Both the position numbers and the translations under genes were made by a program. Positions 1 through 14,954 of a stretch of DNA of 64,000 nucleotides are shown piece after piece; position 1 is the stretch's first letter, and each line of letters starts with the position of its first letter. Location: contig DATLIY010000009.1 in the NCBI GenBank assembly GCA_035539175.1, forward strand, positions 62,001 to 126,000, written 5' to 3'. The DNA comes from Acidisarcina sp. (GTDB lineage Bacteria; Acidobacteriota; Terriglobia; Terriglobales; Acidobacteriaceae). The notes beneath the pieces were generated by a model, which was not told the DNA's origin, made no database searches, and saw only the letters and a program-made list of their open reading frames with translations.

Positions 1-2052
1 CGCGATGGAATGAAGCGCCTCTTCCGGCAGTTCTCGTGGCCCTATGGAATCCCCAGCCACGTCGCTGCAGAGACACCTGGATCCATACACGAAGGCGGAG
101 AGCTTGGCTATTCGCTCGTGCACGCGTATGGCGCGGTCCTCGATAACCCTAACCTGGTGGTCGCCTGTATCGTCGGCGATGGAGAAGCAGAGACCGGACC
201 GCTCGCTACCTCGTGGCACTCAAACAAGTTTCTTAATCCGAAGACAGATGGCGCGGTTCTGCCAATCCTGCACCTTAACGGTTACAAAATAGCAAACCCA
301 ACCATTCTGGCGCGCATCCCGCATGCGGAGCTGGAAGAACTCTTCCGCGGATATGGCTACGAGCCTATCACCGTAGAAGGGGATGACCCGCCGGTTGTGC
401 ATCAGCAGATGGCGGCCGCACTGGACACCATCATGGATAAGATCGCCGCGATCCAGAAGAGCGCCCGTGAGGACAACAATCTGGAGCGGCCGCGCTGGCC
501 TCTGCTCATCCTCAAGACGCCCAAGGGATGGACGGGCCCCAAGATGGTCGATGGCAAACAGGTAGAGGGCACCTGGCGCTCGCACCAGGTACCGTTCTCT
601 GAAATGCATGATAAGCCCGAGCACATCCACATTCTCGAGCAGTGGATGAAGAGCTATAAGCCGGAGGAGCTTTTCGACGAGAATGGCAAGTTTCGCGCCG
701 AGCTAGCCGATATCGCGCCCAAGGGCCGCCGGCGCATGGGTATGAATCCCAATGCCAACGGAGGACTTCTGCTGAAGCCGCTGCGGATGCCGGACTTCCG
801 CGACTTTGCCATCGAGACTCCTGGGCCGGGCCAGGTGAATGCAGAGGCAACTCGCGTCCTGGGATATTTTCTGCGCGAAATAATGCGCAACAATCTGGAG
901 ACAAAAAATTTCCGCGTTGTGGGACCCGACGAGACGGCTTCCAACCGCATTGACGCCGTAATCGAGGTCACCGGGAAGCGATGGGTGGCCGAGACGCTGC
1001 CGGTGGATGAGAATCTATCCGTTGATGGACGCACCATGGAGATTCTGAGCGAGCACATGTGCCAGGGCTGGCTGGAAGGCTATCTGCTTACAGGCCGTCA
1101 TGGCTTCTTCTCCTGCTACGAGGCGTTCATCCACATCGTCGATTCGATGGTGAACCAGCATGCAAAGTGGCTGAAAGTGACGCACTCGCTGCCGTGGCGC
1201 AAGCCGATTGCCTCACTCAATTATCTGCTGACCTCCCACGTCTGGCGTCAGGACCATAATGGCTTCTCGCATCAAGATCCAGGATTCATCGACCATCTGG
1301 CGCACAAGAAGGCCGGGGTGGTGCGCATCTACCTGCCGCCGGACGTGAATACCCTGCTCTCGGTCGCGGACCATTGCTTGAAGAGCCGCGATTACATCAA
1401 CCTCATTGTTGCCGGCAAACAACCCGCGCCAGTCTACCTGACGATGGAAGAAGCCGAGCGGCATTGCACCGTGGGCCTGGGCATCTGGAAGTGGGCAAGC
1501 ACGGACGATGGCAAGGACCCCGATGTGGTCATGGCATGCTGCGGAGACGTTCCAACGCTCGAAACACTGGCGGCGGTTGAACTGCTGCGTGAGCAGGTAC
1601 CGGACATCCGTATACGCGTCGTGAACGTAGTAGACCTGATGACCCTGCAGCCAGCCGAGGAGCATCCACACGGGCTTGCCGATGGCGACTTCGACGAAAT
1701 CTTCACCGCAGACAAGCCGGTAATCTTTGCCCATCACGGCTATCCCATGCTTATCCATCAATTCACCTATCGGCGACGCAATCACGGCAACATCCATGTC
1801 CGTGGCTATAAGGAAGAAGGCACCACAACCACGCCTTTCGATATGTGCGTTCTCAACAATATCGATCGCTTCCAGCTCACGCTCGATGCGATACACCGCA
1901 TACCTCGGTTCAAAGACAAGGTCGATCAGGCCAATCAGGCTTACTCGGAAGCAATACAGCGTCACAAACTTTATGTTTCTGCATTCGGAGAAGACCTGCC
2001 GGAAGTAAGAAATTGGAAGTGGAAAATCAGTAGAGGAACGGATGCAAAATAA
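1..2052 (+). CDS. xfp: Phosphoketolase, 5'-truncated by window edge
   Basis: Thiamine-diphosphate enzyme that splits xylulose 5-phosphate (and often fructose 6-phosphate) with phosphate into acetyl phosphate plus glyceraldehyde 3-phosphate (or erythrose 4-phosphate). The frame is open from base 1. The first visible ATG at position 10 lies inside the protein, because family members are about 790-800 residues and only about 683 are visible. Early conserved stretches [20 protein letters not shown] and [14 protein letters not shown] (the ThDP/Mg site) are intact, and the C-terminal half matches the family to the end. The stop overlaps the start of acetate kinase by 11 bases, so the two are translationally linked and acetyl phosphate goes directly to ATP and acetate. 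I cannot tell single from dual substrate specificity. Confidence 0.96.
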
Positions 2053-3226
2053 ACCAATACTTGTAATCAACAGTGGATCATCTTCAATCAAATTTTCGCT
2101 TTTTCATGCGTCGGAGCACGATAGAACTAAGCTCTTTGAAGGCGCGGTAGACGGCATCGGCACTGACCGGGGCTCATTCTGGATCAAGGACGCTTCTGGC
2201 AAGAAGCTTCGTGACGAGACCCCGGCGCTGCCTACCCGGAATGTCGCCTTTAAACTCGTTACCGATACTCTTCGCAATCCCCAATTCCCCTATCCCGCCG
2301 CCATCGGCCATCGTATGGTCGCTGGCGGCCCGAACCTGACCAGGCATCAGCGCATCACGCCGGAGGTTCTCGACGAGATGGAGCGCAACGTGTCCTTCGC
2401 ACCGTTGCACACTCCGATCGCTGCCTACATCATGCGAGAAGCGCGGGTTCTCTTCCCAGACGTGCCGAACTTCGTCTGCTTCGACACTGCCTTTCACACC
2501 ACAATCCCCGAAGTTGCACAACGCTTCGCCATCCCCGAGAAATACTGGAAGCAGGGTGTTCGCCGCTATGGGGCCCACGGCATTTCGTATGAATCGATCG
2601 TCTACCAGCTTGAGCAGCAGAAGGCCCTGCCTGAGCGCCTGATCGTTGCCCACCTGGGCAATGGAGCCAGCATCACGGCCATCAGGAAAGGCAAGTCCCT
2701 GGATACCAGCATGGGACTGACGCCGACCGGCGGTCTCATCTCCGGCACTCGCACCGGTGATATTGATCCTGGCGTATTGCTCTACATACTGCGGGATATC
2801 AACGGCAGCGCGGATGAGTTGGAGACCATTGCGGCGAAGAAGTCCGGCCTGCTGGGGGTCTCGCAAATCTCAAATGACATGCGCGAGCTGCGCGACGCCA
2901 TTGCTGCGGGGAACCAGAATGCAGCCATGGCGGTAGCTTTGTTCGCCTACTCTGTGAAGAAGTTCATCAGCAGCTATATCGGTGTCCTTGGCGGCCTCGA
3001 CATGCTGGTGTTCACGGGAGGCATTGGCGAAAACGACATCGCTGCGCGTGCTGAGATCTGCGCCGGACTCGAGCACCTCGGAATCACCCTGGATGCGAAG
3101 CGCAACAATGTTCGCGGCGAGGCTGTCATTTCGAGTGAAACCTCCCCGGTGCTCGTGCGGGTCATTCCACCAGCCGAAGACCTGCTGATCGTCAACCACG
3201 TCTATAGGATGATGCAGGAAAAATAA
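2042..3226 (+). CDS. ackA: Acetate kinase
   Basis: Cytoplasmic acetokinase-family enzyme of 394 residues, the usual family length. It transfers phosphate from acetyl phosphate to ADP. The N-terminal [12 protein letters not shown] phosphate-binding stretch, GHRMVAGG, the AHLGNGAS segment, the [10 protein letters not shown] loop and C-terminal VFTGGIGEN are all recognisable. The ATG lies inside the last codons of the phosphoketolase gene, in a different frame. This pairing makes the acetate branch of the phosphoketolase shunt. A strong hairpin follows 18 bases after the stop, so the operon probably ends here. Confidence 0.97.
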
Positions 3227-5430: not shown

Positions 5431-6585
5431 CTAGCGGATCAGTACCCCGGTGGCCGAATATACCGAATCATCTACCGGCGCTTCGATTCGCGGCAGGCTA
5501 GGAGTGGGCGTCAGCAACTCCCAAGCCCCACCTTGCAGCAGCAACGTATCTTCTACCTTGCCACCGCGAATGCTCGGGTTCCAGGCAAATGCCTGGGCAT
5601 CGACGACGGTGTCCGATCCTGCGGGGGTTGCTACCCATTCGCGCTCCAGGTATCCGGTGGGGCCACCCTGGTGGTGACGCTCCTCTTCACCCGCAAAACC
5701 GACCTCCTGATAAGCCTTTTGCGCCACGGCAAACAGATCGGCGCCAGTCGCGCCAACCCGCGTGGCATCCAGCAATGCAGCATTCACCTTTGACGCAGCT
5801 ACAAAGCGAACGGCCAGTTCCGATGGCAGAGGACCAAAGTGAACGAAGCGCGTCATCGAGACAGAGAGGCCCCACTTCCGGCTGCAGAGGTTCAGCATGC
5901 CGAACTCCTCAAGAACCGCCCCGCGAGCCACGGCGTGTTTGTACCGCAGCACACGATCATCGGCAGCCATCAAGAGTACCGACGGCAGAATCCCGCGGCG
6001 CAGCAACGCATGGCCAATGCGGCCCTCCATCTCATACTCGGTAATGCCTGGCTCAAGCGACTCCAGCACCTCAACGGTTGCGTCGGCAGTCTGCCGGCCA
6101 AGCCATCGATAACGCGCGATCTCCGGCTCAGTCAGGCTGGCGCGAAGAGGATAGAAATTGACTGGCGTAAAGTCCGCCGTAGGATAATCGCAGCCCAGGG
6201 GGCCGCCAGCAAGCTTGCGCGCCTGGGACAACAGTTTGTCCTCGTACCAGGGATAGGTGACGGCCTCGAAGTCGAGGTCCTCGAACTCCTCCTCCGCCTG
6301 CCGCCGTGATTCATTCTCAGTGGTCAGATAGAAGCGGCGGCCCTGTGCGGTGATGAGCAGCGCGCCCACTGCGGTCTCCTGCGGGATGCAGACGCGCATC
6401 TCCACCGCTCCGCCTGTAGCCCACGCGATGTTTTCACTTCGGCGAATCAACACCGCGGCAAGCCCCTGGGCTCGCAGGAAAGCACTTAATCTGGCGTGTT
6501 TGCCTTCAATTTCCGCATTCCAAGCTGACTCCGCGACCAGCGTCTCGCCGCCAATAATCAATTCTCTGCTGATGATCTTCGTCAT
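5431..6585 (-). CDS. M24 (aminopeptidase P/creatinase-fold) protein, metal site degenerate
   Basis: 384 residues with an N-terminal creatinase-like domain (about 20-150) and a C-terminal pita-bread domain (about 160-350). M24 peptidases bind two metals through D, D, H, E, E. Where PepP-type enzymes have DxG...D-I-T-R, this protein reads NLCSRKWGLSVSMTR, so both Asp are replaced. The His region is HHQGGPTGY and the first Glu position reads WNPSIRGG; only the last Glu (KVEDTLLL) is clear. It therefore may not be a dimetal peptidase, in the way creatinase is metal-free. It is the last gene of the arabinose operon, 43 bases after araB, with a GGAGAGGG ribosome-binding site. Substrate unknown. Confidence 0.72.
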   Translation of the reverse strand: MTKIISRELIIGGETLVAESAWNAEIEGKHARLSAFLRAQGLAAVLIRRSENIAWATGGAVEMRVCIPQETAVGALLITAQGRRFYLTTENESRRQAEEEFEDLDFEAVTYPWYEDKLLSQARKLAGGPLGCDYPTADFTPVNFYPLRASLTEPEIARYRWLGRQTADATVEVLESLEPGITEYEMEGRIGHALLRRGILPSVLLMAADDRVLRYKHAVARGAVLEEFGMLNLCSRKWGLSVSMTRFVHFGPLPSELAVRFVAASKVNAALLDATRVGATGADLFAVAQKAYQEVGFAGEEERHHQGGPTGYLEREWVATPAGSDTVVDAQAFAWNPSIRGGKVEDTLLLQGGAWELLTPTPSLPRIEAPVDDSVYSATGVLIR

Positions 6586-6628
6586 CCCTCTCCTATTTCG
6601 TCCTGGCCGCTACGGATCCTGACCAGGC

Positions 6629-8215
6629 TCAGTTGATCCTTGTTCTGGCCTCGGCGGCTATAAGGCGCAGCTCCGGCAGCACATCTCCAAGACTACAGGA
6701 CTCTGACGAACGTGTTCCCAGGGCAAAGTAAGCTTTGCGGTAGAGGCGATACAGACGTTGATAGACCAGGACCGCAGCCGGATCCGGCTCAAAGGTCGTG
6801 TGCGAGAGGCACATCGCCTGCTGCGCCTCTTCGATGGTGCTGAATGCATCTGCCGCGCACATGGCGATGATGCCCGATCCAAGGCTGGTTGGCAAACCCG
6901 ACGGCACCAGCACCGGCTTCCCCAGTACATTGGCATATACCTGGTTCAGAACGCGATTGTGCTGCGGTATTCCGCCTGCGTTGATCACCCGGTCGACAGG
7001 AACTCCATGCTCCGCCATTCGCTCCAGAATAATGCGCGTGTGAAAGGCGGTTCCCTCGATGGCGGCAAACAATTCGTCCTGTGCAGTCGAGAGCAGATTC
7101 CAGCCGAAAGTCACGCCGCCAAGCTCCGGGTTCACCAGCACGGTGCGGTCGCCATTGTCCCAGGTAAGCCTCAGGAGGCCCGTCTGCCCGGGCTCATAGG
7201 ATTCGAGGCCCTTCGACAGCTCCGCTACTTTGACGCCCGCCCGCCGGGCAATGGCTTCAAAAATATCTCCTGTAGCCGAGAGGCCCGCCTCAATACCGGT
7301 ATATTTCGGGTGCACACTGCCGGGAACGACGCCGCAGACACCAGGAACCAGTTGCGGGGCCTTCGCCATGGCAATGATGCAAGTAGAGGTGCCGACGACG
7401 TTGACCACATCTCCCTCGCGGCAGCCCGCGCCCAGGGCGTCCCAGTGAGCATCGAAGGCTCCAACGGGAACGGGTATTGCGGAGCGCAGGCCGAGTTCGC
7501 CGGCCCAGTACTGGCTAAGATGCCCGGCAAGGAAATCAGAGGTGTGATACTCGCCAGCAAGCTTGTCAACCACGCCGTCGAGTAGAGGATCGACACCGCT
7601 GAAAAAAGCCTGCGGCGGGAATCCGCCCCAACGCGGGTTCCATAACCATTTGTGGCCCATGGCGCAGACGCTGCGCATGACTTTTGCAGGCTCGGTGATG
7701 CCGCAGAGCGTGGCCGCGACCATATCGCAATGCTCCAGCGCCGTGCCGAGCTGCTCGCGCTTTTCAGGATTGTGCCGCAGCCAATGCAGCAGCTTGGCGA
7801 ATCCCCACTCATGCGAATAGACGCCGCCGCACCAGTCAATCGCCTCAAGATGCTCCCGATGCGCCGCCTCGGTTATCTCCTGAGCTTCCTTCTTCGCGCG
7901 ATGATCGCACCATAGATAGTAATCATCGAGTGGCTGAAGCCGGGCATCGACGGGGATAACGCTCGATCCCGTCGTATCCAGCGCAATGGCCTCCACCTGG
8001 TCTCCCTGGATGCCGGCGTTTGCAACCGCCTCGCGCGTGGCCTGGGTCAAGGCCCGCATGTGATCTGCATGAGACTGGGTCGCATAGTCCGGATCGTCTC
8101 GCCGGCGATGCAGCGGATACTCCACCGTTGCCGCACCCAGCCTGCCTCGTTTGCTGTCCAGGATCGATACGCGAACACTCAGAGTTCCAAAGTCAACACC
8201 CGCTACGATCGCCAT
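6629..8215 (-). CDS. araB: L-ribulokinase
   Basis: FGGY-family carbohydrate kinase of 528 residues that phosphorylates L-ribulose to L-ribulose 5-phosphate. It starts with the actin-like ATPase motif GVDFGTLSVRV and carries DTTGSSVIPV, DDYYLWCDHRAK and the C-terminal FGGY-type NAGGIPQHNRVLNQVYANVL segment. Length and order match AraB rather than glycerol kinase. It lies in a leftward operon with araD and a fucose-isomerase-type enzyme, which fits arabinose catabolism. A GGAG ribosome-binding site precedes the ATG. The 110-base gap on its 5' side holds an unusually strong stem-loop. Confidence 0.93.
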   Translation of the reverse strand: MAIVAGVDFGTLSVRVSILDSKRGRLGAATVEYPLHRRRDDPDYATQSHADHMRALTQATREAVANAGIQGDQVEAIALDTTGSSVIPVDARLQPLDDYYLWCDHRAKKEAQEITEAAHREHLEAIDWCGGVYSHEWGFAKLLHWLRHNPEKREQLGTALEHCDMVAATLCGITEPAKVMRSVCAMGHKWLWNPRWGGFPPQAFFSGVDPLLDGVVDKLAGEYHTSDFLAGHLSQYWAGELGLRSAIPVPVGAFDAHWDALGAGCREGDVVNVVGTSTCIIAMAKAPQLVPGVCGVVPGSVHPKYTGIEAGLSATGDIFEAIARRAGVKVAELSKGLESYEPGQTGLLRLTWDNGDRTVLVNPELGGVTFGWNLLSTAQDELFAAIEGTAFHTRIILERMAEHGVPVDRVINAGGIPQHNRVLNQVYANVLGKPVLVPSGLPTSLGSGIIAMCAADAFSTIEEAQQAMCLSHTTFEPDPAAVLVYQRLYRLYRKAYFALGTRSSESCSLGDVLPELRLIAAEARTRIN

Positions 8216-8325: not shown

Positions 8326-9756
8326 TTAGTCGTTGAATTCAGGATGGAAGTGGCTCTCCCACCCAAGGTAACGGACCGCTGCCTCATGCACCGCGGATGC
8401 GGTCTCCGAGAAGTTCGCCGCAACGTGATGCTCGAAGCCCTCACGGCAGATGTAGCGCAGGAGCTTTTGCATCTGCGGAATCTCCACCACGCCCGCACCG
8501 CCAAAGGTGGCCAATGGATCGTCGGTAAACCGGCCGTTGCCAGTGTAGCCACGAATTACGCCGCGACGATCGTCGGTAGAGTAGCGTGCGAAGCTCATCG
8601 CTCCAGCCTTCACGGTGCCGACGCAGGTTCCAAAGGTATTTTCCTTGCCGACCGTGCCCGCGATGATGGCCTGGTAGTCCATCTTCACCACATCCTTAAA
8701 GAAGTGCTTGGGCAGGTTGGAGCAATGGAAACAGACCGCCTTATCCGGGTTATCGCCATAGTTGTTGTTCCAATCCAGCAACGCCGAAGGAGTACCGGAG
8801 GCCAGCGCCAGCATATACATACTGAGTGTTCCTGGGACATCCACTTCACAGGCACTCGGGATAAGCTCGTTCGACATCATGCTCATGATGGTGCACGGCA
8901 CAACGCCAAAGAACTCTTCCATCGACGTCCAGCACTGCACCGCGCTGATGGTGACGTTGGTCTTCTTCATCCACCTATCGATCACCGCGCCAAGCTTGGC
9001 CATCTTCAGCAACGCATCTTCCGGAATGCCGCTCGTTGTGACATAGGACTTGATCGCAGCCAGCTTAGCCTGTGCCGCATCGTCGTTATCCTGCATGCGG
9101 TTGATACCGCCAAATACCTCGGAGAGGTCCAGCGGTTCAACCGAGATACCGCTCGACTCAAGAATCCGCTCACTGTAGCGAACCGTGTTGAATGCAGCCG
9201 GACGCGCGCCAATGGAGCCAATACGCAGGTTCTTGAGGCCACTGACGACCCGGCAGACCGAAGCAAACCACTTCAGATCCTTCTGAAAAAGCTCCGATGC
9301 CGGATCTTCCGTATGCAGAGTGGTCAGCGAATAAGGGATCTTGTACTGCATCATGTTATTGCAGGCCGACATTTTGCCGCAGAAGCTATCGCGGCGAAAA
9401 GCGATCGTCATCTTCTCGGTTTTGTCGGGGGTAGCCTGCACCAGTACAGGAACGTTAAGGCCAGCGAGACGAATTGCATCGACGATGCCGCGCTCTTCTC
9501 CAAAGTTCGGCAGCGTGACGATAATGCCTTCAATCTCATCGCGATGTTTCTTGAAGAGATCGGCGCATCGGCGCGACTCTTCATAGGTTTCTACCGCGCC
9601 ATGCTCGCTGTCTTCCGGGCCAAGCACAATGGGCTTGATGCCGGCAAGTTGCAGCGCAGCAATAATCTCGTCGCGGCCAGTTTTAGCTAGATGACTCGGA
9701 AAAAATCCGCGATTTCCTACAATAACTCCCATCGACATTGGCTTTGGTGTCGCCAT
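8326..9756 (-). CDS. L-fucose-isomerase-type sugar isomerase, probable L-arabinose isomerase
   Basis: 476 residues of the L-fucose/L-arabinose isomerase superfamily (Mn-dependent aldose-ketose isomerases). It lacks the AraA-type N terminus and resembles the broad fucose-isomerase-like group, with a Rossmann-like first half (GVIVGNRGFFPSHL, GIIVTLPNFGEERG) and a C-terminal domain with SACEVDVPG and FHCSNLP. Since it stands between araB and a sugar symporter in an operon with araD and no other isomerase, I infer it converts L-arabinose to L-ribulose. The symbol araA is avoided because it is not recognisably orthologous to classical AraA. GGAGAA precedes the ATG. Confidence 0.82.
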   Translation of the reverse strand: MATPKPMSMGVIVGNRGFFPSHLAKTGRDEIIAALQLAGIKPIVLGPEDSEHGAVETYEESRRCADLFKKHRDEIEGIIVTLPNFGEERGIVDAIRLAGLNVPVLVQATPDKTEKMTIAFRRDSFCGKMSACNNMMQYKIPYSLTTLHTEDPASELFQKDLKWFASVCRVVSGLKNLRIGSIGARPAAFNTVRYSERILESSGISVEPLDLSEVFGGINRMQDNDDAAQAKLAAIKSYVTTSGIPEDALLKMAKLGAVIDRWMKKTNVTISAVQCWTSMEEFFGVVPCTIMSMMSNELIPSACEVDVPGTLSMYMLALASGTPSALLDWNNNYGDNPDKAVCFHCSNLPKHFFKDVVKMDYQAIIAGTVGKENTFGTCVGTVKAGAMSFARYSTDDRRGVIRGYTGNGRFTDDPLATFGGAGVVEIPQMQKLLRYICREGFEHHVAANFSETASAVHEAAVRYLGWESHFHPEFND

Positions 9757-10024: not shown

Positions 10025-11788
10025 CTACCAGAAGATCAGGTTCAAGATAAAGAACACCACTATGACGACTGAAGCCCAGAACCAGTGATTCTTATAGAGC
10101 GGCACGGGACCCTCGGAGGGAATCGCCGTCTCTCCATAGACGAGTCCCGAGAGCTCCTCCAGCGACTTCGGCTTGGTAAACATGCTGACGACGAAGGTCA
10201 CGGTTACGCAAACGACAAAGGACCACAAGGCACGATAGAGGTTTTCCGCCATGTCCTTCGCATCGGAGGAAAAGGCAACGATCGACAGCGCACTGTGATC
10301 GACCTTGACCCAGGTGTAGAGACCGATGGAGGTGACTGTGCCCGCAAGCAGGCCCCAGAAGCCCCCGGGGGCCGTGGCTCTCTTCCAGAACATGCCGGCC
10401 AGAATCGTACCCAGCAAGGGCGCGATGAAGAAGCTGAAGAGCGCCTGCACATAATCCATAATGCCCTGCGCGTGCATCACGAGATAGGCGGTTCCAATGG
10501 AGACCAGCACCCCGAGGATTGTTGCCCAGCGGCCCACCATAACGTAATGCTTATCCGGTGCATTCTTTTTAAGGTGTGGCTGATAGATATCGTAGGTCCA
10601 CACCGCCGAGAAGGCACTGACGTTCCCCGCCATCCCGGACATGAAGCCCGCAATCAAAGCGGTAATCCCCAACCCCAGCAGTCCAGGCCCGCAGTAGCGC
10701 ACCATCAGCAGCGGAAGCACCTCGTTATAGCTGTGGGGATTCGCGGCGCTCAACGCGTTCTCACCAACCAGGTGCATCAGGCTGCCATCCGGATTCTGCA
10801 GCAGAACCAGCCCCAGCAGGCCAGGAAGAATCACGATGAACGGAACCGCCATCTTGAAGACTGAAGCTATGATTGGCGCCATCTGCGCCGAGCGCAGGCT
10901 ATTTGCAGCCAATACCCTCTGCACCACCAGAAAATCGGTCGTCCAGTATCCGAACGAGATCACAAAGCCGAGACCGAAGACAATCCCCGTCCAGTGCACT
11001 CCCATGGGATTACTGGAAAAGTGAGCCAGGCCGCGCCACATGTGCGTATAGTCCTGATTCTGGTAGTTCATTAAAATCTTCGCCTGCAGGTTATGCCATC
11101 CGCCCGCCTGGATGAGCCCCAGAATCGGGACCAGCAACGCGCCAGCCCAGATCAACACAAATTGCAGCACTTCATTGAAGATCGCGGAGCGCAACCCGCC
11201 CAGCGTCACGTAAACCGCTACGGCGATTGACGATACAAAGATGCTGAAGGTTATATTCCAGCCGAGCACAACCTTCATCACCACGGCCATGGCAAACATA
11301 TTCACGCCGCTCATCAGGATCGTCATGAAGGCGAAAGAAACCGCCGCCAGCACACGGCTGGACTCACCAAAACGAAGCTTCAGATATCCCGGCACCGAGT
11401 GCGTCTTCGATACGTAGTAGAACGGCATCATGACCAGGCCGAGAAACAGCATGGCGGGAATGGCGCCAATCCAATACCAGTGCGCGGCCAAGATGCCGTA
11501 TTGATAGGCTGATCCGGCCCAGCCCATCAATTCGAGAGATCCCAGATTCGCCGAGACGAAGCTCAAACCCGCGATCCACGCGGTCATCTCGCGACCGGCC
11601 ATAAAGAATTCTTCGCTCGTGTTGGCTTGCTGCTTCAGATGAAAGCCAATAAAGAGCACCATCGCGAAGTAAACCGCGATCACGATCACATCCAGCGCCG
11701 TAAGATGCGCCAAAGATTTGCCAGGCTGGAAAAACATCGCCAGGGAGGAGACGCTAAGGCCAGCTGTTGTAGTCAGGAGTGGAACCAT
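10025..11788 (-). CDS. Sodium:solute symporter (SSS/SGLT family), probable arabinose importer
   Basis: About 587 residues with 13-14 predicted membrane helices in the LeuT-like SSS arrangement. The family stretch EEFFMAGREMTAWIAGLSFV and the Na-site region SANLGSLELMGWAGSAYQYG are clear, and the length with a long C-terminal extension matches SGLT-like sugar carriers. It would import a pentose or related sugar with Na+ across the inner membrane. The ATG at 11788 has GAGGG ten bases upstream; an earlier in-frame ATG at 11830 is possible. It lies between araD and the small membrane protein. The exact sugar is inferred from context. Confidence 0.88.
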   Translation of the reverse strand: MVPLLTTTAGLSVSSLAMFFQPGKSLAHLTALDVIVIAVYFAMVLFIGFHLKQQANTSEEFFMAGREMTAWIAGLSFVSANLGSLELMGWAGSAYQYGILAAHWYWIGAIPAMLFLGLVMMPFYYVSKTHSVPGYLKLRFGESSRVLAAVSFAFMTILMSGVNMFAMAVVMKVVLGWNITFSIFVSSIAVAVYVTLGGLRSAIFNEVLQFVLIWAGALLVPILGLIQAGGWHNLQAKILMNYQNQDYTHMWRGLAHFSSNPMGVHWTGIVFGLGFVISFGYWTTDFLVVQRVLAANSLRSAQMAPIIASVFKMAVPFIVILPGLLGLVLLQNPDGSLMHLVGENALSAANPHSYNEVLPLLMVRYCGPGLLGLGITALIAGFMSGMAGNVSAFSAVWTYDIYQPHLKKNAPDKHYVMVGRWATILGVLVSIGTAYLVMHAQGIMDYVQALFSFFIAPLLGTILAGMFWKRATAPGGFWGLLAGTVTSIGLYTWVKVDHSALSIVAFSSDAKDMAENLYRALWSFVVCVTVTFVVSMFTKPKSLEELSGLVYGETAIPSEGPVPLYKNHWFWASVVIVVFFILNLIFW

Positions 11789-11877
11789 TCTGTCGAAGCC
11801 CTCATTCCCGTCGCTCTCCGCGAAGGGCATTCCGTCGATCTATCCTCTTCATGCAACGCTGCAGAAGTTGGTGCGTA

Positions 11878-12588
11878 TCAATGCTTCTCTTCAGGAGTGC
11901 GCTGTCCGTAGGTAGCATTCGCACCGTGCTTGCGCTCATAGTGACGGCGCAATAATGCGGGCGAAACCGGCCCAAGTTCTGGCCGGAGCAGGTTCGCGCG
12001 GAATGCCAGCTTTGCCAGATACTCCAGGATGACCGCGGTATGGGCAGCGGCTTCCGGAGACTTGCCCCATGTAAAGGGTGCGTGTCCCGCCACGAGGACT
12101 CCAGGCACGGCTTCCGGATCGAGGCCTTTGAAGCGATGTACGATCACGGCGCCTGTGTTTTTCTCGTACTCTCCCTCGATCTGCTCATCGGTCAGCGGCT
12201 CTGTCACGGGAACCTCCCCGTTGAAATAATCCGCATGGGTCGTGCCGAAGCAAGGTATCGGCATCTGCGCCTGTGCCCAGGAGGTGGCGAACTCCGAATG
12301 CGTATGGACCACTCCTCCGATCGTCGGAAATTCGCGATAAAGGAGCACGTGCGTATCGAGATCGGAGGAGGGATTGAGCGTTCCCTCGACGATCCGGCCC
12401 TCCAGATCGGTGATCACCAGATCCTCAGCCTTCAAGCGTTCATAGGGGACGCCGCTGGGCTTGATTGCGATGAGTCCTGCCGAGCGATCGATACCGCTCG
12501 CATTCCCGAAGGTGTAGAGCACCAATCCCTGTCGCTGAAGCTCCAGATTGGCGTCTAATACGCGCTTTCTCAAATCGGGGAGTAGCAT
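11878..12588 (-). CDS. araD: L-ribulose-5-phosphate 4-epimerase
   Basis: Class II aldolase-family zinc enzyme of 236 residues producing D-xylulose 5-phosphate, a substrate of the phosphoketolase at the window start. GNASGIDR, IKPSGVPYERL, NPSSDLDTHVLLYREF, the metal-binding VVHTHSEFATSWAQ and GHAPFTWGKSPEAA are diagnostic of AraD. The ATG at 12588 follows AAAGGAA with correct spacing, so it is preferred to a start 12 codons upstream. It is the first gene of the leftward arabinose operon, with a palindromic candidate operator about 90 bases upstream. Confidence 0.95.
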   Translation of the reverse strand: MLLPDLRKRVLDANLELQRQGLVLYTFGNASGIDRSAGLIAIKPSGVPYERLKAEDLVITDLEGRIVEGTLNPSSDLDTHVLLYREFPTIGGVVHTHSEFATSWAQAQMPIPCFGTTHADYFNGEVPVTEPLTDEQIEGEYEKNTGAVIVHRFKGLDPEAVPGVLVAGHAPFTWGKSPEAAAHTAVILEYLAKLAFRANLLRPELGPVSPALLRRHYERKHGANATYGQRTPEEKH

Positions 12589-12676
12589 TGGTTCCTTTGC
12601 AGGCTCCGTCCGCCGCAAGACCAAAATTCAGGGCAAGCGGTTCGCGGATTGCGATTGTCATGGGACGCATCCCAGG

Positions 12677-12841: not shown

Positions 12842-14954
12842 ATGCGACGCTTTTTTATTATTTCCCGGTTGAGATCCCAGGCAGCGAGGCATCTTTCCGC
12901 ACTTGTGCTGGGCATCGCTCTGCTCCTCCACTTCCCTGCCAGGATGGTATTTGCCCAGGCGACGGGGTTTCCGAATGTTCCGCCGCTCCTGGTCGGGGCC
13001 GCCTGGTACCCGGAACAATGGAGCGAAGCCACCTGGGACCACGATCTGGCCCTGATGGAGGCTGGAAATATCCACCTCGTGCGCGTGGGAGAGTTCGCCT
13101 GGAGCAGCATCGAACCCTCCGAAGGCCAATACAAGCTGGATTGGCTGGAGCGCGGTTGCCAAAGCCGCTGCACATCACATTGTTGTGGTTATGGGAACGC
13201 CCTCTGCCGCGCCCCCGGCCTGGCTTACGACTCAGTATCCTGAGACCTTGCGCATCGACGAGAACGGCCGTCGGGACGAGCATGGCAACCGCACCCAGTT
13301 CTCCTTCGCCAGCGCCCGCTATCGCCAGTTGGCCCGCCAGGTCGCCGAACAGATGGCCATCCGCTTCGGCAAGAATCCGAATGTAGTCGGCTGGCAGTTA
13401 GACAATGAATATGGCAACACATCGTTCGATCCGGAGACACGGCAGCAGTTCCACGCCTGGCTCAAGGCTAAATATGGAACCATCGACAACCTGAATGACC
13501 ACTGGACGACCACCTATTGGTCGCAAACCTATGACACCTTCGATGAGATTCCGGTTCGTCCGACCGGCGAGAACCCCGGTCTGCTGCTCGACTGGAGACA
13601 CTTCGTCAGCGAAACCTGGAAGAGCTATTCGCAGAACCAGATCGACGTAATCCGTGCGCATGCTGATCCGCGCCAGTTCATCACGACGAACACGATGGGT
13701 TGGTTCGATGGCTTTGATCACTACATCGTTCACTCCAACCTTGATATCGCCGCCTGGGACGACTACGTGGGCGCAGGGCCGTATGACTTCCTCACGAATG
13801 GCATGACGCACGACCTGGTCCGCGGGTTCAAGAACAAGAACTTCTGGGTCATGGAGACGCAGCCGGCATTCGTGAACTGGGCGTCGAACAATGCGGCACT
13901 CCATCGTGGCGAGGTTCGGGATATGGCGTGGCAGGCCGTGGGCCACGGAGCGGAGGCGGTCGAGTATTGGCAGTGGCGTAGTGCCTTGAATGGCCAGGAA
14001 CAGTACCATGGCGTGCTGGTTGGAGCCGATGGAACGCCCGTTCCCGTCTATGACGAAATCAAGCAGGTGGGAGCGGAATTCGCCAAAACAGGGACAGCCA
14101 TTGCCGGTACGACTCCGGACTCTCAGGTCGCTATTCTGCATACCTATGACAGCGTCTGGGCGATCGACTTTCAGCGGCACAACAGGGAATATCAGCCCAT
14201 CGCCGCGATTGCGCAGTACTACCGGCCATTGCGCCAGATGGCCCAGTCCGTCGATGTGATTTCACCCGACTCCCCGTTGAACAAATACAAGCTGATTGAA
14301 GCTCCGGGCCTGAACGTTCTCTCGCAGCAGACTGCAAACCGCCTGATGGACTATGTCAAGCAAGGCGGCAACCTGGTTCTGGGAGCGCGTACGGGGATGA
14401 AGGATGAGTACAACGCTCTCTATCCGCAGCGGCAACCCGGCCCTCTGGTGGATTTCCTCGGTGGGCGAGTGGAGCAATTCTACTCGCTGAAAGAGACGAT
14501 TCCTGTCTCAGGAGAAGCAGGAAGTGGCACAGCAAGCATCTGGGCGGAGCAACTGAGCACCAAGGACCCTTCGACCAAAGTCTTGCTGCGTTACGGAGCC
14601 AGCAATGGATGGCTGGATAACCAGCCGGCGATGATTACCCGCGCAGTCGGCAAGGGGACCATTACCTATGTTGGCGCGTGGCTGGACGACGTATTGATCC
14701 GGAAGCTAACCGCCGACCTTGTGAAGCAGAGCGGAGTTACGCCTGTCCTGCCAGGCACGCCAGACGGAGTTGAGGTCTGTCAGCGGTCGAATGCCCAGCG
14801 CCGGGTCCTCATCCTGATTAACCACACCACGAAGGCTGAGCGCATCGATTTGCATGGCTCTCTGCGTGACCTGCTCGCCGACGGCACACCGCAACGCTCC
14901 AGCATCGAACTGGAACCGTATGGCGTCGCCGTGCTCGAACAGTCAAACCGCTAG
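12842..14954 (+). pseudogene. Secreted GH42 beta-galactosidase, reading frame broken
   Basis: The first part (from the ATG at 12842) encodes a signal peptide with an Ala-rich core ending near VFAQA, then the GH42 N terminus (GAAWYPEQW, VRVGEFAWSSIEPSEG) up to DWLER. The reading frame then shifts at about 13148-13155 (GAGCGCGG). Restoring two bases (GC) there gives an uninterrupted family sequence DWLE-R-AVAKAAAHH continuing to the stop at 14954. The catalytic acid/base in QLDNEYG and the nucleophile in VMETQPAFVNW lie after the break, followed by a trimerisation-like domain and a C-terminal beta domain; total about 700 residues. It is either a real recent inactivation, a slippage-corrected gene or a sequencing error in a GC run. 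The enzyme would release galactose or arabinose units from plant glycans. Confidence 0.85.

Follow-up and report, generated by a model that had tools for sequence, protein, structure and literature searches.

Why should a gene whose product belongs to the M24 fold of metallopeptidases lie in an operon for the use of arabinose? The question arose from an initial annotation of a 64,000-nucleotide stretch of an Acidisarcina contig (DATLIY010000009.1; here called the window), which described an M24-fold protein with most of its metal ligands lost, likened it to metal-free creatinase rather than to a peptidase, and left its link to sugar use unexplained. The analysis reported here suggests that this protein, P0001, may be a metal-free aldose mutarotase that replaces GalM, a reading based on sequence comparison and a predicted structure, to which we give a probability of about one half.

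The gene and its operon

P0001 is specified on the minus strand by an open reading frame for 384 amino acids (5431..6585), which runs from 6585 to 5431, starts with ATG, ends with TAG and has a ribosome-binding-site-like sequence just before its start (AGGAGAGGG, 6586..6594, minus strand). The gene is the fifth in a row on this strand, following araD, for L-ribulose-5-phosphate 4-epimerase (11878..12624; NF006047, 337 bits against a cut-off of 257), a sodium:solute symporter gene (10025..11830; PF00474, 4e-56), the gene for a Fucose_iso_C family sugar isomerase, presumed to be the L-arabinose isomerase (8326..9756; PF02952, 4e-27), and araB, for ribulokinase (6629..8215; NF003154, 547 bits against a cut-off of 428), from which it is separated by 43 bases; purU comes next. 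The placement in an arabinose operon is thus upheld. A role tied to the downstream purU was considered and found to be unsupported, since the window's purU falls in no gene cluster of three or more loci; a COX15-like cluster gene often sits downstream of P0001 relatives instead.

Some features of the surroundings may be mentioned here. The operon's isomerase (8326-9756, minus strand) is of the Fucose_iso_C type and not a classical AraA, and its match to sulfoquinovose isomerase is weak; isomerases of the Fucose_iso_C and classical AraA types both adjoin P0001 relatives in a Chloroflexota-type sample of genomes. Close to the operon, at 10-3226 on the plus strand, is a pair of genes judged by eye to be phosphoketolase-like and acetate kinase-like, which would carry pentose phosphate to acetate, and whose clusters (23 and 6) recur in 7 and 12 of the relatives' loci, respectively. 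At 12842-14954 (plus strand) a GH42 beta-galactosidase gene is seemingly split into two overlapping open reading frames in different frames (12842-13243 and 13185-14954), the second of which covers the profile only from position 64.

Only two Pfam models match P0001 at E ≤ 0.001, each by about 10 bits over its cut-off: Creatinase_N (PF01321; 6e-8, 33.7 bits, cut-off 22) and Peptidase_M24 (PF00557; 8.4e-8, 32.7 bits, cut-off 23). At the same threshold no NCBIfam model is matched, and membership of the EutD group was rejected, as P0001 gives no match to TIGR02993 and the match in its own genome is a different gene (C13), itself below the cut-off. The window's genome has a single copy of P0001 (searched with the protein at E ≤ 0.001) and four further M24 proteins found with the Pfam M24 model, in which the ligand columns appear by eye to be kept.

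A pita-bread fold without a usable metal site

An AlphaFold2 model of P0001 made with 89 sequences (pLDDT 96.7, pTM 0.94) predicts the creatinase/prolidase 'pita-bread' fold, which together with the Creatinase_N and Peptidase_M24 matches supports the earlier view that the fold pattern is retained despite the ligand loss. The top Foldseek matches were EutD/DoeA, prolidases and creatinases, the best being the ectoine hydrolase 6twk (2.3e-20), and Spt16 was also among the fold matches. In VIA-align comparisons the Xanthomonas prolidase 5cde, which shares the two-domain fold over nearly the whole length of P0001, gave Z 32.5 (rmsd 2.6, 341 aligned), EutD (6twk) Z 30.7 (rmsd 2.7, 341 aligned) and the creatinase 1chm Z 30.0 (rmsd 2.8, 342 aligned). 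As these best rows span no more than 2.5 Z, the fold gives creatinase no preference over prolidase.

The five metallopeptidase ligands (D, D, H, E, E) were sought by aligning P0001 with prolidases from the PDB and with a metal-type M24 paralogue from its own genome (L217), in columns that we take to be the M24 metal-binding positions. P0001 lacks the set: the first Asp is replaced by N232 (codon 5890..5892, minus strand, as for all the codons given here), the second Asp by S243 (5857..5859), the His by G308 (5662..5664; glycine in 129 of 131 non-redundant relatives) and the first Glu by N336 (5578..5580; asparagine in 128/131), leaving the last Glu, E345 (5551..5553; 129/131), as the sole ligand kept. 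The initial annotation, which had given N, S and N correctly, therefore understated the loss: there are four replacements rather than three, because the column of the metal histidine coincides with the last glycine of the HHQGG signature. That signature, of which H304, H305 and Q306 (5668..5676) are found in 126, 128 and 129 of the 131, is indeed present, but it is not a remnant of the metal site, since G308 occupies the ligand column and H304 aligns with a conserved histidine of prolidases that is presumably not a ligand. H217 (5935..5937; histidine in 128/131) falls likewise in a conserved histidine column of M24 enzymes, which we also take to be non-ligand.

The same pattern runs through the relatives. 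Exactly one of the five ligands is present in 128 of the 131 and two are present in one (L184); the two members that scored zero (L133 and L100) are fragments as extracted. Aspartate occurs in none of the 131 at column 232, which is mostly N or V, and in one at column 243, which is mostly S or A. On these alignments the loss of ligands is not a matter of chance. A metal peptidase with relocated ligands was also considered and rejected, there being no conserved ligand-like substitute at columns 232 and 243, and G308 and N336 being nearly invariant.

How, then, does P0001 stand to its nearest known relatives? From prolidase and aminopeptidase P (MEROPS M24B) it differs in the replacement of four of the five ligands (by N, S/A, G and N) and in its sugar-operon context, while H304 and H217 align with conserved histidine columns and E345 with the last metal Glu. 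Creatinase and the ectoine hydrolase EutD/DoeA are metal-free members of the fold, with His232, Glu262 and Glu358 as the catalytic residues of creatinase; P0001 shares the fold, but is only 14% identical to creatinase (1chm) and 16% to EutD (6twk) in the Foldseek alignments. The likeness to creatinase is thus one of fold and of metal loss. The suggestion of a metal-free creatinase rather than a peptidase stands in so far as the fold is creatinase-like and the metal site unusable, features from which we conclude that P0001 is probably not a metallopeptidase, but it falls short in that prolidases are at least as near in fold.

A widespread and conserved family

In the window's phylum, 24 of 297 genomes gave a strong match to P0001 (E ≤ 7.5e-48), after which there was a gap to 5e-10. 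A phylum sample around an Anaerolineae genome had the family in 33 of 201 genomes, and one around an Ignavibacteria genome in 5 of 247. (The labels Acidobacteriota and Chloroflexota, as used here, rest on the titles of the relatives' records, and the Chloroflexota-type sample includes one genome titled Rubrobacter.) When genomes from 84,980 species were scanned with HHQGG and FAWNP patterns, at least 528 related stretches were confirmed, and the best 80 loci, which were retained, carry titles that include Acidobacteria, Bacteroidetes, Ignavibacteria, Calditrichota, Neomarinimicrobiota, Armatimonadetes, Chloroflexaceae and Omnitrophota. The family was also present in 37 of 72,556 plasmid records, among them ones from Pantoea, Thermus, haloarchaea and Nostoc. 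The 131 non-redundant members (< 90% identity) were drawn from 145 loci, and four of the extracted proteins (L093, L100, L107 and L133) are fragments.

Fourteen residues (W55, R95, W113, D133, H217, R246, H304, H305, Q306, G308, R315, N336, K343 and E345) are each present in 125 to 129 of the 131. As the genome scan had used sequence patterns, conservation was determined again on 54 members not selected by motif, with the same result. The near-invariance of so many polar residues (H217, R246, H304, H305, Q306, R315, N336, K343 and E345) makes it probable, as far as sequences can tell, that P0001 and its relatives are enzymes. Could they instead be pseudoenzymes that bind a free sugar, as sensors, chaperones or partners of an isomerase or kinase? 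Non-enzymatic proteins with the M24 fold exist, such as Spt16 and Ebp1, and both the loss of the metal ligands and the appearance of Spt16 among the fold matches agree with such a role, for which there is a precedent in an Ebp1 homologue described in one paper as a non-peptidase M24 pseudoenzyme (PMC3888471). This seems distinctly unlikely, however, given a conserved set that looks catalytic (three His, Lys, Glu and Arg) and the exported appearance (by eye) of some members, which would place them away from cytoplasmic partners. Lipoprotein-like signals were recognized by eye in 12 members, mostly of a clade of Bacteroidetes/Ignavibacteria/Neomarinimicrobiota type; the 31 of the 131 that a crude filter had picked out beforehand included several plain false positives.

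There is no dedicated NCBIfam model for the family: five general models find matches among the 89 members aligned, and the best of these takes in 29 of the 89 (E ≤ 1e-5). Database records name relatives 'M24 family metallopeptidase' or 'aminopeptidase P family protein', annotations that are misleading for proteins that have no metal site and are often encoded in sugar operons. Among the papers listed in searches of the open-licence PMC literature, none dealt with an M24-like protein encoded in sugar operons, most of the subscription literature lying outside the scope of those searches.

Sugar genes around the family

The association with sugar genes extends well past arabinose. In Thermus, a P0001 relative follows a xylF-ABC-ROK-xylA-xylB series; excerpted text of a paper on the xylose cluster of Thermus brockianus names xylH, xylF, xylR, xylA and xylB, but not the M24-like gene (PMC5292009). 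The laboratory strain Thermus thermophilus HB8 has a relative as well (WP_014677649.1). In Nostoc, the relative overlaps malQ; in haloarchaea, it adjoins a gene for alpha-L-arabinofuranosidase; and in Pantoea, its neighbours are ROK, MFS, GMC oxidoreductase and SDR genes. The loci listed from the Chloroflexota-type sample include four with araBAD context (L182, L190, L200 and L201; by eye and tblastn), and galK or galT lies beside relatives in L184, L207, L212 and L215, among the loci listed (by eye and tblastn, with GalT and FGGY by Pfam). A role confined to L-arabinose is ruled out by the xylose, galactose and malQ contexts.

By tblastn, 38 of the 131 family loci have a core aldose gene no more than 2.5 kb away, versus none of 20 control loci for metal-type M24 proteins, all of these controls being from Acidobacteriota. 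The window's own group accounts for 19/35 and the rest for 19/96, and when members are clustered at 50% identity the context is found in 13 of 32 clusters, two of the 13 (L093 and L107) being fragments. These counts are lower bounds where contigs are short, and some neighbours in GC-rich loci will have been wrongly called by the longest-ORF script. Adjacent genes on the same strand (98 of 170 eligible scanned) included Fucose_iso_C isomerases (11, mostly in close relatives of the window), MFS transporters (7), FGGY kinases (6) and GH42 proteins (6), whereas for genes farther off in these loci (100 scanned out of 199) each such family had at most one protein, the lone GH42 being the window's own. 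A GH42 gene lies next to the M24-like gene in 7/131 loci. On a tree of 99 members, the minimum number of changes was 5 for an arabinose label (within 4 kb), 10 for a galactose label and 24 for any sugar, the last taking in symporter and GH42 genes; the tree was made by a quick method, with sugar-context loci kept first during thinning and with incomplete labels. The arabinose and galactose figures indicate that the sugar link has been gained or lost repeatedly.

The link is frequent but not universal: in 93 of the 131 loci the nearest 2.5 kb are free of core aldose genes, examples being Ham1-like or NfeD neighbourhoods. Five of the loci (L110, L111, L124, L125 and L126) share a conserved trio in which NfeD-like and LOG/lysine-decarboxylase-like genes come after the M24-like gene, with no core aldose gene nearby. 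In four others (L187, L189, L193 and L204) a Ham1-like gene (by eye) precedes the M24-like gene, which is followed by a membrane-protein-like open reading frame; Ham1p_like was found in three of the scanned neighbours.

A widespread M24-fold family of sugar operons that has no metal site is therefore real, and the sugar link that had been called unexplained both holds and has acquired a specific candidate explanation in an aldose mutarotase. A quite different explanation would be a peptidase with another metal or none, whose substrates are peptides carrying sugars in plant cell walls, or whose link to sugar genes is due to chance. It would suit the M24 ancestry, and L-arabinose and D-galactose are present on hydroxyproline-rich plant proteins. 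We consider it highly improbable, given the retention of just one of five ligands in 128/131 members, the unfitting xylAB and malQ contexts, and the absence of all 12 probe genes within 4 kb of the 20 metal-type M24 control loci.

A candidate mutarotase in place of GalM

The factor common to these contexts is a free aldose and not any one pathway, and it is this, with the export-like signals, that led to the idea of a mutarotase. As an enzyme, P0001 would represent a metal-free branch of the M24 pita-bread fold that has as yet no name, and its former metal pocket would now be lined by H217, R246, H304, H305, Q306, R315, N336, K343 and E345 and probably completed by a loop of the N-terminal domain carrying W55 of the partner subunit. 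The pocket may bind free, unphosphorylated aldoses (a phosphorylated substrate is unlikely, as some members look exported) and, by acid-base catalysis, interconvert their anomers through the open chain. Such an aldose mutarotase, or 'openase', would supply the isomerase or kinase of its operon, in this instance giving L-arabinose to the isomerase and thence ribulokinase, and the M24-fold protein would substitute for the unrelated GalM. Somewhat short of even, in our estimate, are the chances of the wider proposition, that in a bacterial and archaeal family the pita-bread fold has become a broad-range metal-free aldose mutarotase, exported in some lineages, which displaces GalM in operons for arabinose, galactose and xylose.

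GalM and P0001 are unrelated as proteins. P0001 has no PF01263 match and its predicted fold differs, GalM being a beta-sandwich. Their occurrence is partly complementary, and they are alike in their operon slot and, by eye, in the export-like start of some members of each, signal-like stretches being seen at the start of some GalM proteins of the window's taxonomic family. Among 20 GalM loci fetched from that taxonomic family, two (G281 and G241) have the gene order araD-araB-galM, galM coming immediately behind araB in both; in G281 all three genes share a strand (galM with PF01263, 2.6e-95). In a third (G130) galM adjoins araA (PF01263, 1.2e-95); of the others, one is near galK and galT, one is three genes from an araD-symporter-isomerase run, and 15 have no probe gene. 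The slot after araB is thus taken by GalM in G281 and G241 and by P0001 in the window.

This shared slot also bears on the possibility that P0001 is a metal-free hydrolase of the creatinase/EutD kind, cleaving a sugar-linked C-N compound (a glycosylamine, sugar amide or imine) and so releasing the operon's sugar. EutD is the best Foldseek match, with creatinase close too, and H217 and E345 retain conserved M24 columns. Such an activity nevertheless appears unlikely: the companion sugars vary (arabinose, galactose, xylose and glucan), no family that handles amines or amides is among the 25 most frequent listed out of 74 found in neighbours, the one match to the EutD model in the genome is not P0001, and the slot shared with GalM points elsewhere.

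For the mutarotase reading, occurrence was compared using galactokinase (PF10509, E ≤ 1e-12) and canonical GalM (PF01263, E ≤ 1e-70, a threshold chosen once a gap in the list of matches had been seen). In the 297 genomes of the phylum, galactokinase is present in 20 of the 24 with the P0001 family versus 102 of the 273 without it. Among these galactokinase-bearing genomes, canonical GalM is found in 3/20 versus 78/102, and any PF01263 protein in 6/20 versus 84/102. Within the window's taxonomic family, the 25 galactokinase-bearing genomes comprise 22 with GalM only and three with the P0001 type only, none having both or neither, and one genus (g2) has one genome of each sort. With genera as units, canonical GalM is found in 3/13 versus 37/53 (p 0.0035). 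A control consisting of genomes with weak hits to metal-type M24 proteins was, however, also low in GalM (7/18 versus 71/84, p 1.6e-4), so the statistic is inflated by ancestry and is suggestive only. Stratified by taxonomic family, p was 1.7e-4 for the control and 1.6e-4 for the P0001 family; with genera as units the control gave 5/11 versus 36/46 (p 0.057), and a single taxonomic family (f42) supplies five of its 11 GalM-less genomes. In the Chloroflexota-type sample (201 genomes) the difference was not significant, either for canonical GalM (0/33 versus 8/168, p 0.36) or for any PF01263 protein (7/33 versus 57/168, p 0.22). Three of the 24 Acidobacteriota with the P0001 family also carry canonical GalM, and two divergent, non-canonical PF01263 proteins are encoded elsewhere in the genome of the window. 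The rarity of canonical GalM in the family's loci (1/131) is uninformative, as the control loci also have none (0/20). Better evidence than the occurrence test comes from the slot shared with GalM, the range of sugars involved and the export-like signals.

There is a parallel in YhcH (DUF386), an operon protein of unknown function that turned out to be an N-acetylneuraminate anomerase supplying the next enzyme; the authors of that work speculate that mutarotases may give isomerases the open sugar (PMC8141875). Unlike P0001, YhcH is a zinc protein, of a different family and with a different sugar. If P0001 and its relatives are mutarotases, this would explain how some lineages that use galactokinase or arabinose cope in the absence of canonical GalM; it would add an unexpected new fold for sugar anomerization, in a sugar-acting branch of M24; and it would make testable the question, raised in the YhcH paper, of whether aldose isomerases need an 'openase' (PMC8141875).

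Finally, we draw attention to loci in which an M24-like gene is accompanied by another possible epimerase gene. The M24-like gene has a weak aldose-epimerase-like/DUF5107 protein as its neighbour in 11 loci, many of them of Ignavibacteria/Bacteroidetes type, and there a mutarotase would be partly redundant. One locus (L130, 9989-11089 and 7900-8964), unique among the 131, has canonical GalM and an M24-like gene on the same strand about 1 kb apart. The DUF5107/aldose-epimerase-like neighbour is exemplified by L104 (11166-12116), with 10 similar loci, in which the M24-like protein often has an export-like signal, and galK is near some of these DUF5107-adjoined genes.
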